Source: Akkermansiaceae bacterium
GTDB taxonomy: Bacteria; Verrucomicrobiota; Verrucomicrobiia; Verrucomicrobiales; Akkermansiaceae
Assembly (NCBI GenBank): GCA_903826205.1
Contig: CAIKDP010000197.1
Coordinates: 1 to 40,671 of the forward strand
Length of the DNA: 40,671 nucleotides
Reading direction: 5' to 3'
The position numbers and the translations under genes were made by a program. The stretch's first letter is position 1. Each line of letters starts with the position of its first letter. Shown piece by piece: positions 7,224 to 40,567 of this stretch. The notes beneath the pieces were generated by a model. The model was given only the letters and a program-made list of their open reading frames with translations, was not told the origin of the DNA and ran no database searches.

Positions 7224-7347
7224 CACCCCAAGGAGGGGCGATCTCCGAATCGCCCACGACCATGAGCAGACAATGGGCAGCGTCTAGTCTCCAATCATTG
7301 ACCGTCCATGGCCAACGGCGATTCGGAGATCGCCGCTCCTTGAATCG
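7224..7347. repeat. REP-like inverted pair, unit 2 (REPIN-type)
   Basis: A 25-base arm at 7230-7254 and its inverted copy at 7317-7341 differ at one base. Each arm reads AAGGAG (or AAGGAG with C for the next G), then stem GGGCGAT, loop CTCCGA and stem ATCGCCC (7236-7255 in the left arm). About 60 bases of unique sequence separate the arms. With unit 1 this fills most of the 343-base gap before the HzsA-related gene. The GGAG tetranucleotide directly 5' of a hairpin is the layout of RAYT-recognised REPs. Confidence 0.75.
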
Positions 7348-7413
7348 TTGTCGCATGATACGCATTGCTTTTGGCGGAGCGGGCATTAGTCTTGCGTACC
7401 CACAAATTACAGC

Positions 7414-10400
7414 ATGATCAAACTTATTTTCCGACAGGCCGCAGGCGCTGCCATTTTGGCTGCCGCACTGGGGGTCGCAGCCACTGCCCGTGCCGCGGAA
7501 CCCGCCGCACCGGCGGCGGGTCAGTTGTGCTTCGACTTCGAGACCGGCGCCCTCCAAGGCTGGAAAGTCGTTGAGGGCCAGTTCGCCCGCGTGGTGACCG
7601 ATCGCCCGGAGTATCACAACAAAGGCGCTTATGCCTCACGCCAGGGGAAGGCCCATCTCTCCACGGTCGAGGGTGCCAACGGTGCTCCAGCCGACGTCCA
7701 GCGCGGCGTGATCGAGTCGCCGGTATTCACGTTAGACGCGCCGCAGGTCTCGTTTCTCATCGGTGGCGGCACCGCCCAGGATACCTATGTCGCGCTGTGC
7801 ACGCTCGACGGCAAGGAGCACATCCAGGCCCGCGGCAAGGGCAGCGAAGTGATGTCCCGCGTGCAATGGAACCTGCCGGCTCTGGTGGGACAGAAAGTCT
7901 TCATGCGGGTTGTCGATGGCAACAGCAGCGGCTGGGGCCATGTCACCCTGGATGACGTCGTCGCCAGCGGGACCCTCGACGCCCAAGCCAGCACCGAACA
8001 CTTTGCCAAGCGCAAACGCGTTCTAACACCCCAAGGCGGCGCCGGCAGCGCGGTGCCCCTCGACGCGCTGCGCTTGGCGGTGGAGGATTTGACAACGACT
8101 TTTGGCAAGCGCTACCCCGGCGGCACGGCATTTCTGAAGGAACTCGATGAACTGCAAAAAATTGCCGACGATGATGCGGCGGACAAGGCGGCATTGACGG
8201 CGCAACTCGCCGACCTGCAACGGCGGGCTTTGTTAGCCAATCCGCTGGTGAGTGGACGTCCGCTCGTGTTCGTGGCGCGGCCGCAGTATGCCGCGATCTA
8301 TCATGCCATCGATACTTTGTCCCAGGTCGGTGAGGCCACCGACGGCAAGTTCGCCCCTGGCGGCGCGCTCAAAATATTGGATGTTGCCTCAGGCGCAATC
8401 CGCACGCTGGTTGAAACCCCGCAGGGCACCGTGCGCAGCCCCTGCGTCCACTTCGACGCCAAGAAAATCCTCTTCGCCATGCGCCGCACCGCCAAGGAGA
8501 ATTTGCATATCTTCGAAATCAACGCCGACGGCAGCGGCCTCAAACAACTCACCTTCGCCGCGGACGTGAGCGATTTTGATCCGATCTATCTGCCCGACGG
8601 CGGCATCGTTTTTTCCTCCACCCGCGAGCCGAAGTTCAACATGTGCAGCCAGGACATCGGCGCCAACCTTTTCCGCATGGACGGCGACGGCTCCAACATC
8701 ATCCAGATCACCAAGAGCACCTTGTTCGAGAATCAGGCCGCGCTGCTGCCCGACGGCCGCATCGTCTACAAACGCTGGGAATATGTGGATCGTAATTTTG
8801 GCGACGCCCACGGGTTCTGGACGGTCAACCCCGACGGCACCCAGCAATCGATCTTGTGGGGCAACAACAAGGCTGACCCCGCAGCCGTGTATTACCCGCG
8901 CCTCATCCCGGACACCTGGCAAATGCTCTGCATCCTCAGCACCCATCACGGGAACATGTGGGGCGCGCTGGCGATCATCGACCCTAACATAGACACCGAC
9001 CGCAACGCCGCCATTCTCCGCACCTGGCCGGCCGGCGTGCGCGCCAGCCTCAGGGATAGTGATAGATTTGATTGCGACCGCCTCGGGCGCGTCAATCCCA
9101 AGTATGAGGACCCGTGGCCGCTGAGCAGCAAGTACTTCCTCTGCTCGCGCAGCGACCCGCAAAACCGCATGGGCATCTATCTCCTCGATGTGTTCGGCAA
9201 CGAGTTGTTAGTCCATAGCGAGGCGCCCGGCTGCTTCAGCGCCATGCCGCTGGCCACCACGCCGCGCCCGCCGACCACACCCGTGCGGCGCGACTACAAC
9301 AACGCCAGCGGCCTGATGTATGTGACCGACGTCTATCAGGGGACTCACATGCAAGGCGTCAAGCGCGGGTCGGTGAAAAAAATCCGCGTCGTTGAGTCAC
9401 CCGAAAAACGCGCCTGGACCGATGGCAAATGGTTTGGCCAGGGGTTCCAGGCACCGGGCATGAACTGGCACGACTTCACCGCCAAGCGCATTCTCGGCAC
9501 GGTGCCGGTGGAATCCGATGGCAGCGCGTATTTCAAGGTGCCGGCGGACACCTTCATCTTTTTCCAACTGCTTGATGAGAATGACATGATGATCCAATCG
9601 ATGCGCAGCGGCACCGTCGCCCAATCGGGCGAAAAGACCGGCTGCGTGGGATGCCACGACAACCGTCTGGCCGCGCCGCCGCCGGCGCTGGTTCCACCGC
9701 TGGCGTTGCGCCGAGAGCCCAGCACGCTTGAGCCATGGTATGGGCCCACGCGTTCGTTCAGCTTCATGGCCGAGGTGCAACCGGTGTTCAGCAAGCATTG
9801 CGTCGAATGCCATGACTTCGACAAACCCGCCGGCAAGAAGCTTTTGCTTGCAGGTGACCGCGATCCGTTTTTCAACGCCGCCTACACCGAGCTATGGCGC
9901 AAGAAATTCATCAAGACCATCGGCGCGGGACCGGCTGGCATCCAGCAACCGTACTCATGGGGATCACATGTCAGCCCGCTGGTGAAAATCCTCGTCGAGG
10001 GCCACGCCCCGGATAGGGGCCCAAGTCCCGACAAGCTCAAGCTCGACAAGGAAAGTGTGGACCGCGTCATCACCTGGATCGATATCAACGCTCCCTACTA
10101 TCCGACCTACGACAGCGCCTATCCGAACAACCCCGCCGGACGCTCGCCTCTAACCGGAGGCCAGCTGGGCCAGCTCAGCCGTCTAACGGGCGTGAATTGC
10201 TCGCAAGACAACTTCGCCTCCAGCAACGGACCGTGGGTCAGCTTCGACCGGCCGGAGCTTTCGCCCGCTCTCGCCAAGCTCGACAAGAATTCGCCGCAAT
10301 ACAAGGAGGCCCTCTCAATCCTGCAAGCGGGCAAGGACGCCCTCGCCCGCCAACCGCGGGGTGACACACTTGATTTCACCCCCTGCGCCAAGGACCAGCA

Positions 10401-34466: not shown

Positions 34467-35054
34467 CTAGACGTCGCTCTGGCCGCTTTCATGCAGGATG
34501 CGCAAGCCCTCGCGCACGTAGTCGACGGCCGACCACACGGTGAAGACAGCGGCAATGATGCATGGATAGATCGGCGAGAACGGCACCACCTTGAGCATGA
34601 TCCAGCCGATGGCAACCATCTGCGCCACCGTGCAAACCTTGCCGCTCCATTGCGGCGCGATGCGCACCTTGTGGCCGGTGAAATGCAGCACGTTGATGCC
34701 GCCTAGAATGATGCAATCGCGCACGATGACCAGCGCGGTGAACCACAACGGCAGATGCCAATTGTCCGGACCCCAATCCACCGCGGTGAGGGTGATGATG
34801 GCGGTGAGCAGCAGGGATTTGTCGGCGATGGGATCGATGATCGCGCCAAACTGTGAGCGCTGGTTGAAGCGGCGGGCGATCCAGCCATCGAGCCCGTCGC
34901 TGGCCGCGGCCGTCACAAACACCGCCAGCGCCGACCAGCGCAGCCATTCGAGCGGCGCCTTCTCATTCACACTATGACCATAGTAAATCGCCAGCACGGC
35001 AAACACCGGCACCAGCAGCAACCGCGACAAGGTGATCTTGCTTGCGAATGTCAT
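34467..35054 (-). CDS. pgsA: CDP-alcohol phosphatidyltransferase (PgsA-like)
   Basis: A 195-residue inner-membrane enzyme of phospholipid synthesis. The CDP-alcohol signature D-x2-DG-x2-AR-x8-G-x3-D-x3-D is intact in SDGLDGWIARRF and FGAIIDPIADK. Several membrane helices follow. The most common member is phosphatidylglycerophosphate synthase (CDP-diacylglycerol plus glycerol-3-phosphate to PGP and CMP), but other head groups cannot be excluded. Start ATG 35054 (MTFASKITLSR) matches family N-termini; an upstream in-frame start at 35072 adds MCLHGF. It converges with the GH-like gene, leaving 12 bases. Confidence 0.85.
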   Translation of the reverse strand: MTFASKITLSRLLLVPVFAVLAIYYGHSVNEKAPLEWLRWSALAVFVTAAASDGLDGWIARRFNQRSQFGAIIDPIADKSLLLTAIITLTAVDWGPDNWHLPLWFTALVIVRDCIILGGINVLHFTGHKVRIAPQWSGKVCTVAQMVAIGWIMLKVVPFSPIYPCIIAAVFTVWSAVDYVREGLRILHESGQSDV

Positions 35055-35092
35055 GAACCCATGCAAGCACAATATCCAGCAGGTGGGAAACT

Positions 35093-35120
35093 AAAAAAAC
35101 GCCCCCCGCGGCGCAGGGCG
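35093..35120 (-). terminator. Intrinsic terminator on the minus strand ahead of pgsA
   Basis: Read on the minus strand: CGCCC (35120-35116), a GC-rich loop, GGGCG (35104-35100), then seven T (35099-35093). It would stop a minus-strand transcript arriving from the palindrome block or from the SMP-30 gene, insulating pgsA, whose start is 39 bases beyond. Confidence 0.55.
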
Positions 35121-35192
35121 ATTGGCTTATGCCGCCTCTATTCAACGAAGCACAATGATTTTTGCGCTTTTCCTAAACATGGGTGCTGAGTT

Positions 35193-35383
35193 TGTCATGT
35201 GACCCGGGTTATGGACCCGGGTCACATGACAGGAATCCTCCCTCACAACAGAGGGTCATCCTGATGTCCGATCGGACATCAGGATGTCCTAACAGCTCAG
35301 GCCTGGTGCTGAGGCGGCTTCGAAATGAGGCGCGCACGGCGAACGCGACAAATTCGCTGACGATCGTCACAGAATTTGTCGCG
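35193..35383. repeat. Palindrome block: five hairpins in series
   Basis: (a) 35193-35231: 17-bp perfect arms (TGTCATGTGACCCGGGT and inverse) with loop TATGG. (b) 35240-35255: CCCTC/GAGGG. (c) 35257-35286: a perfect 30-base palindrome centred on CCGATCGG, which also reads as two facing hairpins (ATGTCC and GGACAT). (d) 35296-35313: CTCAG/CTGAG. (e) 35344-35383: arms CGCGACAAATTC / GAATTTGTCGCG (12 bp), with the inner palindrome TGACGATCGTCA at 35358-35369. No gene is seen in 35055-35511; with the terminator at 35093 this is the whole content of the spacer. Confidence 0.9.
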
Positions 35384-35511
35384 ATCCATCTTTCAGCGCG
35401 AGATTATCCTGCTAAATGTTTTGCATTAGTGGATTATAGCCGGTGAACAATGCGGCCCGCGTCGGCGTGCAGCGCGGCGAGGACGCAAGGAAATACGCCA
35501 TGCGCATGCCA

Positions 35512-36381
35512 TCACGGCACCTTGACGCCGGGGACGGCGAGGCGGACGCGATAGAGGCCGGTGCGGCAGGTCATGTAGAGCGCTTTCCAATCGTTGTCGC
35601 CGAAGGCGCAGTTGGCGGGCTGTTCGGCCATGCTGAAGGTACCGAGATGTTTGCCGGTGGCATCGAACACCATCACGCCCGGCCCGCTGGTGCAATACAC
35701 GTTGCCCGCGGAATCCACTTTCATGCCGTCGGGACCGGGCACCTTGGCGAAGACGCGGCCGTTGGCGAGCGAGCCGTCGGCGGCGACATCAAAGGCGCGG
35801 ATGTGACCGCCCTCGGTGTCGTTGACATAGAGGATCTTTTCGTCAGGCGCGAACGCCAGTCCGTTGGGCTTGATGAAATCCTTGGCGAGCAAGGTCAGCG
35901 ACTTGCCATCGGGGGAAATCCGATAGACCCCTTGGAAATCCAATTCCCGCTCTTCGGGTTTCACACCGTAGGGCGGGTCGGTGAAATAGGTCGCACCGTC
36001 ATTTCTAACAACACAGTCATTCGGGCTGTTGAGGCGCTTGTTGTCGTAACGCTCGGCGAGCACGGTGAGGGTGCCGTCGGTCTCGGTGCGGGTGACGCGG
36101 CGCGTGCCGTGCTCACAGGCGATGAGGCGGCCTTGTTTGTCGAGGGTCAGGCCGTTGGAGTTGTTGCTGGGAGTACGGAAGGTGACAAACTTGCCGTCCT
36201 TGAAACTCACAATCCGGTTGGCGGGGATGTCGCTGAAGAGGAGTTGGTTTTGGGCGGCGACCCACAGCGGCCCTTCGGTGAATTTGAAATCGCCGCCGAG
36301 CTTTTCGACCGGCGCGGTGAAGTCCAGTGCGAGGGCGGTGTTTATCATGGCGAGGCAGGCGTAGGATAGTTGGATTTTCAT
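35512..36381 (-). CDS. Secreted SMP-30/gluconolactonase-family hydrolase
   Basis: A 289-residue protein with a signal peptide (QLSYACLAMINTALA). It has the six-bladed SMP-30/gluconolactonase pattern: FTEGPLWVAAQNQLLFSDI with the metal Glu, NSNGLTLDKQGRLIACEHG, LNSPNDCVVRNDGATYFTDP with the metal Asn, and KPNGLAFAPDEKILYVNDTE with the metal Asp. The family hydrolyses sugar lactones such as gluconolactone using a divalent metal. A periplasmic lactonase role in sugar oxidation is likely. Start ATG 36381 has GGAAG upstream and precedes the signal peptide; the frame is open to 36444. Confidence 0.9.
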   Translation of the reverse strand: MKIQLSYACLAMINTALALDFTAPVEKLGGDFKFTEGPLWVAAQNQLLFSDIPANRIVSFKDGKFVTFRTPSNNSNGLTLDKQGRLIACEHGTRRVTRTETDGTLTVLAERYDNKRLNSPNDCVVRNDGATYFTDPPYGVKPEERELDFQGVYRISPDGKSLTLLAKDFIKPNGLAFAPDEKILYVNDTEGGHIRAFDVAADGSLANGRVFAKVPGPDGMKVDSAGNVYCTSGPGVMVFDATGKHLGTFSMAEQPANCAFGDNDWKALYMTCRTGLYRVRLAVPGVKVP

Positions 36382-36416
36382 GGGTGGCTTCCGTTCTTTT
36401 CGGTGTGAATTAAAAT

Positions 36417-36475
36417 AAGGAGGAGGGACATTCCTGTCCCTCACAAATCTGGCAATGGTGGACAGGAATGTCCAT
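36417..36475. repeat. Facing pair of GGACATTCCTGTCC palindromes (REPIN-type)
   Basis: AAGGAG (36417-36422) leads directly into stem GAGGGACA (36423-36430), loop TTCC and stem TGTCCCTC (36435-36442), a perfect 8-bp hairpin. The 14-base core (36426-36439) recurs as its exact inverse at 36460-36473. It is upstream of the SMP-30 gene. It shares the AAGGAG foot with the 7.2-kb array but has a different stem and a TTCC loop. Confidence 0.75.
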
Positions 36476-39893: not shown

Positions 39894-40265
39894 TCAAACG
39901 AGCTGAAGGCCGTGGGGAACAAAGGTTTCGAAATCGCTGCGATTCTGCGTGGCAATGCGTGCGTTGGCGGCGATAGCGGTCCCGGCAATCATGGAATCCA
40001 CCCGGAGAGAACGCTTTCGATCGATCGCGTTGAAAAGTCGGGCCGCCGCTACGGCTTGGGGTTCGGCAAAGGGGACAATGGTTGTAAGAAAGGCTCGCAT
40101 GGCAGCCTCTTGATCATCGGTGACAGGTCCACATAAGAATTCGAACCAAGCAGGCGTGGAGGTGATGAGAGTTTCTCCCGCCTCGATCCATGCAACCAGT
40201 TCGGCGGCCTCCGCGGTGTCCGCAGTCACGCCGCGGATCAAATAGTTGGTGTCGAGGCAAATCAT
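39894..40265 (-). CDS. vapC: VapC-type PIN-domain ribonuclease toxin
   Basis: A 123-residue toxin that cleaves RNA in the cytoplasm when free of its antitoxin. PIN acidic residues are Asp5 (CLDTNYLI), Glu42 (WFEFLCG), Asp90 (RVDSMIAG) and Asp111 (RSDFETF). The start ATG 40265 overlaps the antitoxin stop (ATGA), as is usual for this family. Length is typical. Confidence 0.9.
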   Translation of the reverse strand: MICLDTNYLIRGVTADTAEAAELVAWIEAGETLITSTPAWFEFLCGPVTDDQEAAMRAFLTTIVPFAEPQAVAAARLFNAIDRKRSLRVDSMIAGTAIAANARIATQNRSDFETFVPHGLQLV

Positions 40266-40522
40266 GTGCTGCGCCAGTGTTTGCGATCTTCGTAAACTTC
40301 AGCCAAATACGCTTCGGCCTTGGCACACTCCAATCCGCCGCCGCTTTCATGCAACCGCCGCAACATGGCAACCGGATCCGGTTTGTGGACTTCCGCCTGT
40401 TTCTCTGCCTGTTCCAATGACCGGCGCACCACTTCGGCCTGCGACACCTGCCACAGCGAGGATAGACGCCGAAGTCGATTGGCCGTGGTGCCATCGAGAG
40501 CGAAGGTGGTGCGGTGAGTCAT
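40262..40522 (-). CDS. Ribbon-helix-helix antitoxin of the VapC module
   Basis: An 86-residue antitoxin from ATG 40522 (MTHRTTFALDGTTANRL), or 89 residues from ATG 40531. The N-terminal half is a CopG/ParD-like ribbon-helix-helix (TTFALDGTTANRLRRLSSLW, then QAEVVRRSLEQAE); the C-terminal part should bind the toxin. The frame extends to 40567 but that region is the promoter itself. The predicted transcript start near 40532 makes ATG 40522 the better start. The gene is first in the operon. Confidence 0.82.
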   Translation of the reverse strand: MTHRTTFALDGTTANRLRRLSSLWQVSQAEVVRRSLEQAEKQAEVHKPDPVAMLRRLHESGGGLECAKAEAYLAEVYEDRKHWRST

Positions 40523-40530
40523 CGTTGGCA

Positions 40531-40567
40531 TACCATCACTCGTACCATCACTATTCCGCCAGGTCAA
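40531..40567 (-). promoter_or_regulatory. Antitoxin promoter with paired direct-repeat operator
   Basis: Minus strand: TTGACC (40567-40562), 17 bases, TACGAG (40544-40539). Two exact copies of GTGATGGTA (40551-40543 and 40539-40531), 12 bases apart centre to centre, flank and overlap the -10. Ribbon-helix-helix antitoxins repress their own promoters by binding such tandem sites. Confidence 0.65.

Follow-up and report, generated by a model that had tools for sequence, protein, structure and literature searches.

Palindromes of an Akkermansiaceae spacer belong to dispersed repeat families that appear to be paired with PaaX-like genes

The window, meaning the whole 40,671-bp stretch of Akkermansiaceae DNA analyzed here, contains an intergenic spacer with three large palindromes (P1, P2, and P3), two of which (P2 and P3) appear to be members of two families of ∼36-bp palindromes, each probably paired with a PaaX-like gene. 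Such a gene forms a ∼0.9-kb unit that is bounded on both sides by its palindrome, with solo palindromes dispersed in the same genome. From the sequence comparisons described below, we consider it probable that these are repeat-protein pairs, in which a PaaX-like protein recognizes its own palindromes and the palindromes are dispersed in a REP-like manner, some of them as MITE cargo. The protein is predicted to bind its palindrome as a dimer, and this binding would control its own gene and allow the palindromes to be maintained and to multiply, much as REP/RAYT pairs do; IS-derived MITEs may have carried some copies along, those of the window among them. A gene-plus-repeat partnership that resembles REP and uses a different protein is apparently undescribed, and none of the titles listed in our literature search links PaaX with such repeats.

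In the host genome (a 5.57-Mb draft, termed G000 herein; other genomes, contigs, and loci carry the prefixes G, C, and L), the spacer with P1, P2, and P3 lies between a pgsA-like gene and an SMP-30-like gene, both on the minus strand. Its features are the following.

34467 to 35072, minus strand: CDP-alcohol phosphatidyltransferase gene (pgsA-like), the left neighbor, outside the element
35116 to 35129, plus strand: left terminal repeat GGGCGATTGGCTTA of an IS-derived MITE; the same left end starts a repeat in G039
35116 to 35445, plus strand: apparent truncated MITE remnant, its right end set by eye where similarity to other copies stops
35193 to 35231, no strand: P1, a hairpin with two perfect 17-bp arms and a 5-nt loop
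35254 to 35289, no strand: P2, palindrome GGTCATCCTGATGTCCGATCGGACATCAGGATGTCC, 36 bp, 94% complementary
35341 to 35386, no strand: P3, 46 bp, 87% complementary, with core GCGACAAATTnnnTGACGATCGTCAnnnAATTTGTCGC
35512 to 36444, minus strand: SMP-30/gluconolactonase-like gene, the right neighbor, outside the element

A first-pass annotation, made from the letters alone, had described five different palindromes in series in this spacer and judged chance to be very unlikely. The cluster is real. P1, P2, and P3 have the three highest palindrome scores in the window (17.0, 15.5, and 15.5; one score was applied to the whole window), in which five palindromes score at least 11, the two others at 11.0, and 300 dinucleotide-preserving shuffles of positions 35100 to 35500 yielded no palindrome of score ≥11, which bears out the judgment on chance. 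The 17-bp arms of P1 and the perfect palindrome formed by the inner 30 bases of P2 (35257 to 35286) were confirmed by coordinates, and a reported 40-base palindrome ending at 35383 exists but extends over 46 bp (35341 to 35386); the palindrome said to be nested in it is its perfect center, TGACGATCGTCA. The other two palindromes of the first-pass annotation are 5-bp hairpins, located by eye at 35240 to 35255 and 35296 to 35313, which are too small to mean anything. P2 and P3 have a common architecture, a 36- to 38-bp core palindrome centered on CGATCG, and differ in sequence. The left half of P1 resembles the leader of an IS, as far as the ATG that opens the IS reading frame, and its right half is an inverted copy; P1 is read, from this match, as a fold-back of the IS leader and not as a palindrome of the PaaX type. 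A single repeated unit, already doubted in the first-pass annotation, was rejected because the three differ in sequence and P1 has this other reading. A structured RNA, which had been offered as an option, gained no support either, with no Rfam match at the gathering score in the window and with palindromes that read identically on both strands and stand beside unrelated genes. When the 401-bp spacer was compared with 38 other genomes, any match at all was found in 4 of the 38, each 32 to 44 bp long, arguing that the spacer as such is not conserved. Elsewhere in the window, a PIN-domain gene (39894 to 40265, minus strand) lies directly behind a 101-amino-acid gene (40262 to 40567) without a Pfam match, and the two (39894 to 40567, minus strand) look like a toxin-antitoxin pair.

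The pairing of palindromes with genes is seen in a scan of a genome collection, in which 80 loci with PaaX-like genes comprised 57 from Verrucomicrobiota, Kiritimatiellota, and bacteria without a group label and 23 further loci, mostly labeled as Patescibacteria groups, that were treated apart. Several PaaX-like genes lie between two matching palindromes, which differ from locus to locus, those of G049 belonging to the P2 family. Palindromes scoring ≥11 were present within 160 bp upstream in 30 of the 57 loci, downstream in 41, and on both sides in 25, and their density was about a hundredfold higher near the gene (72 in 18.0 kb) than beyond 400 bp (9 in 246.7 kb). At the 25 two-sided loci, the similarity of left and right palindromes averaged 0.92 (range, 0.65 to 1.00) versus 0.49 between loci, and a gene's own right side was the best or tied match to its left side in 22 cases. 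Protein identity correlated with palindrome similarity (Mantel r = 0.60; 0 of 2,000 permutations; n = 22, since three of the 25 loci, absent from alignment A2, were left out); this correlation alone could come from shared descent, but the left-right match and the dispersal are independent of it. A relaxed rescan of the other 32 loci, run without a null, added 11 pairs with a similarity of at least 0.8, and 21 of the 57 loci, some of them at contig ends, had no matched pair by either route. Among the 23 loci treated apart, matched pairs of ≥0.94 were found in five (L156, L158, L170, L172, and L175) and a pair of 0.66 in L163; the palindromes of these five, at PaaX-like genes outside the Verrucomicrobiota, have other centers.

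The two families of the spacer are each linked to PaaX-like genes that have these palindromes as their bounds, an arrangement pointing to recognition by a protein, and the idea of a protein-binding array in the first-pass annotation survives to that extent. Recognition by the PaaX-like protein would be the simplest account. It could also take the form of an ordinary regulator with a regulon, that is, a PaaX-like repressor for which the palindromes are operators of its own gene and of target genes. Where an upstream palindrome was found, it lies mostly within tens of base pairs of the ATG, as an operator might, and PaaX is a known repressor of the same fold; the palindrome that is also present downstream of the gene in 41 of the 57 loci does not fit, and we regard this explanation, the strongest competitor, as rather unlikely. 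PaaX-like genes occupy the same place in related species in four pairs of loci, which indicates vertical inheritance. For the PaaX unit of G015 and G022, the two neighbor genes match at separate places elsewhere, leaving no definable empty site.

G000 has PaaX-like genes at three places, and 11 of 58 other genomes also have such genes; the gene of the P2 family is not among the three of G000. PaaX represses phenylacetate degradation, and Cas2 is a subunit of the CRISPR integrase. The protein encoded on contig C283 has PaaX_M (PF20803) as its sole Pfam hit, at 71.5 bits against a gathering cutoff of 24, and fits Escherichia coli PaaX by profile (hhalign probability, 98). It resembles PaaX (TIGR02277; E. 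coli K-12 paaX) in fold and in domain order (MarR-type winged helix, Cas2-like domain, and C-terminal helices), but all four proteins compared with the TIGR02277 equivalog model scored 53 to 63 bits, far below its cutoff of 264.55, and the neighbors of the C283 gene, the one locus whose gene neighbors were run through Pfam, are sugar-kinase and aminotransferase genes and not paa or cas genes. An AlphaFold model (mean pLDDT, 79.8) matched Rv0674 (PDB 3kfw; Z, 14.4; rmsd, 4.2; 218 residues) and E. coli PaaX (PDB 8a39; Z, 13.7; rmsd, 6.5; 239 residues). Model residues ∼91 to 170 have the ferredoxin-like fold of Cas2 and VapD (best Z, 9.6 and 8.1, respectively), and residues 1 to 78 matched winged helices such as MepR at a Z of 8.0, near the level of common arrangements. 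As in Cas2, an Asp stands at the end of the first strand (FDLP), but the domain is fused here to a winged helix, and the Cas2 profile matches are weak. This Asp100 is invariant in all 48 proteins of alignment A2 (drawn from 60, the products of the 57 scan loci and of the three genes of G000, with 12 fragments or odd starts left out), an invariance that is partly built in because the peptide patterns used for searching included one containing FD. E. coli PaaX lacks the Asp, and no palindrome at the scan score was found in the 20 kb around E. coli paaX. No relative turned up in viral contigs, and plasmids gave one partial match.

Outside these loci, the palindromes are dispersed, with copy numbers that are minima throughout because nearly all genomes are drafts or bins and the search patterns were strict. 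With up to 3 mismatches allowed, the P3 half-site GACAAATTNNNTGACGATCGTC was hit 49 times in G000, at 25 places, against 0 hits for the reversed control, and GACGATCGTC is kept in all 49 although the arms vary; TGACGATCGTCA occurs at 16 places, 15 within the P3 family and one other on C307. Five of the family's places are on C283, two of them beside an rRNA operon and three around the PaaX-like gene (7254 to 8021), one 62 bp past the stop codon and two upstream, the nearer 12 bp before the ATG. The three that flank the gene are imperfect and fall below the score at which the flanks of the PaaX-like genes of G000 and the other genomes were screened. P3 palindromes adjoin the 5S end of apparent rRNA operons (L065:7720-8200 and L026:1-200), and one of these two ends has ∼370 bp extra, bounded by direct repeats TTGTCGCGGAG and with a GGCCGGCGAAT-type tandem array. 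In the upstream region of L033 (G000:C8), the tandem repeat GAGCGGAGCGAGATAGACTT adjoins a P3 copy. Contigs C57, C162, and C276 (L025, L024, and L023) hold three copies of a repeat that seems to be the region upstream of, or at the start of, a small repeated gene; a P3-type palindrome stands at the same place in every copy.

P2 belongs to the family that flanks the PaaX-like genes of G049 and G059. Its half-sites numbered 72 at 38 places in G059 (34 places hit on both strands; two single ones appear chance-like), 20 at 10 places in G049, 5 in G000, 4 in G042 (all with 3 mismatches), and 1 each in G018 and G039, and the reversed pattern gave none in all six genomes. Half-hits of a ACAATnnTTGTCnCGGCC-type family were present in seven of eight genomes (G067, 49; G069, 23; G070, 22; G066, 18; G071, 14; G068, 6; G072, 4) and absent from G000, with no control hit in any of the eight. 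CACCTG-type half-sites were found in G064 (23; control, 1), G062 (19; control, 0), G063 (18; control, 0), G061 (13; control, 0), G060 (4; control, 2), and G065 (2; control, 2), the counts for G060 and G065 not being above chance save for the gene's own sites in G060; in that complete genome, palindromes occur only at the PaaX-like gene (2 places), plus one chance-like hit. Other families are centered on GGCC, AGCT, GTAC, CATATG, or CACCTG, and a methylation or HIP1-like site, which the CGATCG center might suggest, was rejected for this reason.

The first-pass annotation had named a genome-wide search as the test of whether the spacer is a repeat hotspot. Since P3 proved to be an independent dispersed repeat in G000 (25 places) and P2 is dispersed in relatives, the spacer is, by that test, partly a repeat cluster, apparently a MITE remnant, but the repeats are not anonymous. 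The dispersal, which ranges from 2 to 38 places in a genome, and the strong conservation of the core might also bring to mind a chromosome-organizing protein with dispersed palindromic sites, as known from MatP/matS and ParB/parS. We find this hardly credible, because the gene too has such sites on either side and their numbers vary widely between relatives.

Solo palindromes lie mostly between genes. Among 33 solo-site loci, 32 could be classed by crude ORF calls, with 7 in convergent, 10 in divergent, and 15 in tandem contexts, which is near random; four of the 33 (L265, L266, L270, and L288, the last being the unclassed one) have no palindrome at the score used for comparing G067 with G066. 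This distribution speaks against a regulon, and promoter-only or terminator-only placement was unsupported by these crude contexts. At L233 (G000:C77:21580-22200), two different CCGATCGG-centered palindromes adjoin each other, one P2-like and the other similar to the palindrome found at the PaaX-like gene on contig C114.

Part of the dispersal involves MITEs. The left part of the window spacer, starting with GGGCGATTGGCTTA at 35116 and extending to mid-P1, is a repeat in G039 too, where four contigs end just inside the GGGCGATTGGCTTA-starting repeat, after the start of a reading frame. Within G000, the 401-bp spacer gave 44 matches (the palindromes' own reverse-strand matches included), of which one is a near-complete relative (C208; 76%; query positions 13 to 324) and a series covers P3, several including the flank to its right. 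No right terminal repeat was found in the window copy; a degenerate right end similar to TCAGCCAAACGCCC (2 to 4 mismatches in 14, without a null) lies 83 to 109 bp right of the P3 center in 7 of 14 other P3 copies examined. Given the left terminal repeat and these degenerate right ends, we read the spacer as what is left of an IS-derived MITE after truncation. The DNA to the right of P3 in C205 resembles that at 7 of 24 other places (E value of 0.001 or better), so that the MITE context is clear for part of the P3 family only. The two neighbors of the window element match on different contigs in G042 and G018, and its empty site could not be defined. In our reading, the spacer is a nest, a MITE remnant that holds a palindrome from the family of its own genome's C283 gene together with a palindrome from a family whose gene sits in relatives.

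A ∼195-bp MITE unites 22 of the G059 copies in one alignment, the palindrome lying close to the MITE center; a few of these copies have a replaced left end, and target duplications of 9 to 11 bp (≤1 mismatch) were found in 12 of the 13 copies with both ends placed (13 of 26 copies; no random-pair control). Most G059 copies appear to have moved as MITE cargo and not evidently by themselves, and L211, L232, and L235 sit outside this MITE. The element (L199 to L218, L227 to L231, and L236) has long terminal repeats CATGCGCGTCAAGTTAAGG and lies in GC-rich sequence. The G059 copies and the left terminal repeat of the window spacer would also suit an explanation by MITE debris only, in which the palindromes are internal parts of IS-derived MITEs and their association with PaaX-like genes is incidental. 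This is very unlikely: palindromes of PaaX families occur in two MITEs that are unrelated and belong to different genomes, the copies of G066 and G067 have unrelated flanks, and the flanking of PaaX-like genes recurs in dozens of loci. MITE-borne copies and the presence of two families in one spacer would be unexpected for a regulon.

REP-like palindromes are widespread in bacterial genomes, and in REPIN-RAYT systems doublets occur and the gene is inherited vertically. The PaaX-like genes and their palindromes share both traits with them, and, as in REP/RAYT systems (REPtron or REPIN-RAYT), a gene is bounded on both sides by palindromic repeats that are also dispersed between genes, though not in every locus or genome. 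They differ in the protein, since RAYT (TnpA-REP) is an HUH tyrosine (Y1) transposase and the protein here, by Pfam and by fold, is not, being PaaX-like with a Cas2-like domain; the absence of HUH transposases among the 50 structure matches listed proves nothing by itself. They differ also in the repeats, which here are near-perfect palindromes over their whole length, reach up to a few tens of copies, and, as read by eye at the scan loci, have no GTAG tag in common at a stem end. Most G059 copies lie inside a MITE with terminal repeats, and the window copy apparently lies in a MITE remnant with a left terminal repeat; the palindrome families also exist outside MITEs. According to PMC3733652, one large REP class has no known partner enzyme, and CGTC-tagged REPs carry CGTC at one stem end and have no dedicated tyrosine transposase. 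The palindromes described here are similarly dispersed without such a transposase, but GACGATCGTC is a center, and of one family only, other families having other centers. If a second, unrelated protein family has its own bounding palindromes, gene-repeat pairs of this type must have had more than one origin, and the Cas2/PaaX fold, used in CRISPR adaptation and by a catabolic repressor, would gain a link to the maintenance of repeats in genomes. From the pairing one can also predict directly, for dozens of natural protein-palindrome pairs, which protein should be specific for which DNA.

How the sites evolve can be followed in the sister species G066 and G067, which are 88% identical over 2.7 kb at the PaaX-like gene. 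Since the flanks of their palindrome copies are mutually unrelated, the palindromes are naked there. G067 has 18 solo loci, besides a 19th locus with the PaaX-like gene. For 11 of the 18, an orthologous palindrome is present in G066, 3 (L258, L264, and L266) lie in an aligned G066 stretch in which no palindrome was seen and the intergenic surroundings are not alignable either, and 4 (L257, L262, L263, and L270) have no placement. For naked palindromes, the search for a clean empty site with a target duplication gave none. Twelve orthologous palindromes were compared, after the nonorthologous L273/L283 pair and the first palindrome of L256, without a counterpart, had been dropped. The center is CAGCTG (5 sites) or the intermediate GGCTG (3 sites) at 8 of the 12 in G066 and neither at any of the 12 in G067, and the arms also change on both sides (for example, L267 versus L276). 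All three palindromes at the resident gene of G066 (L115) have CAGCTG, and those of G067 (L121) have GGCC. This match between solo and resident-gene centers suggests that the resident gene sets the course for the sites, which would be either selected for being recognized or converted. Template switching during replication perfects palindromes and could add to the concerted change.

The 11 orthologous loci and the change in concert with the resident gene are what a regulon would give as well, as is the fold shared with E. coli PaaX and Rv0674. Alternatively, the PaaX-like protein might, besides binding DNA, act as a mobilizer, a Cas2-fold enzyme that works independently of Cas1 and spreads its own palindromes by nicking them or recombining at them. 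This reading, under which REP-like elements of Verrucomicrobiota, Kiritimatiellota, and Patescibacteria would have an enzymatic basis of a new kind, seems doubtful to us. Hints compatible with it, all without a control count, are the invariant Asp, the two-sided bounding, the matched flanks in 5 of the 23 mostly Patescibacteria loci, and homology breaks at palindrome edges (L130/L143, L256/L279, and L265/L360) or, in L105/L106, where the right palindrome ends. Among a regulon, a REP-like partnership (selfish or domesticated), and an active mobilizer, we favor the REP-like one, on the grounds that a palindrome also follows the gene, that 7 of 32 classed sites lie between convergent genes, that doublets occur, and that the numbers vary. 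Three of the twelve compared palindromes lie in stretches that are 95 to 99.7% identical between G066 and G067 (L272/L282, L269/L274, and L271/L275), other shared loci being mostly 73 to 88% identical, which perhaps reflects recent exchange or mixed bins.
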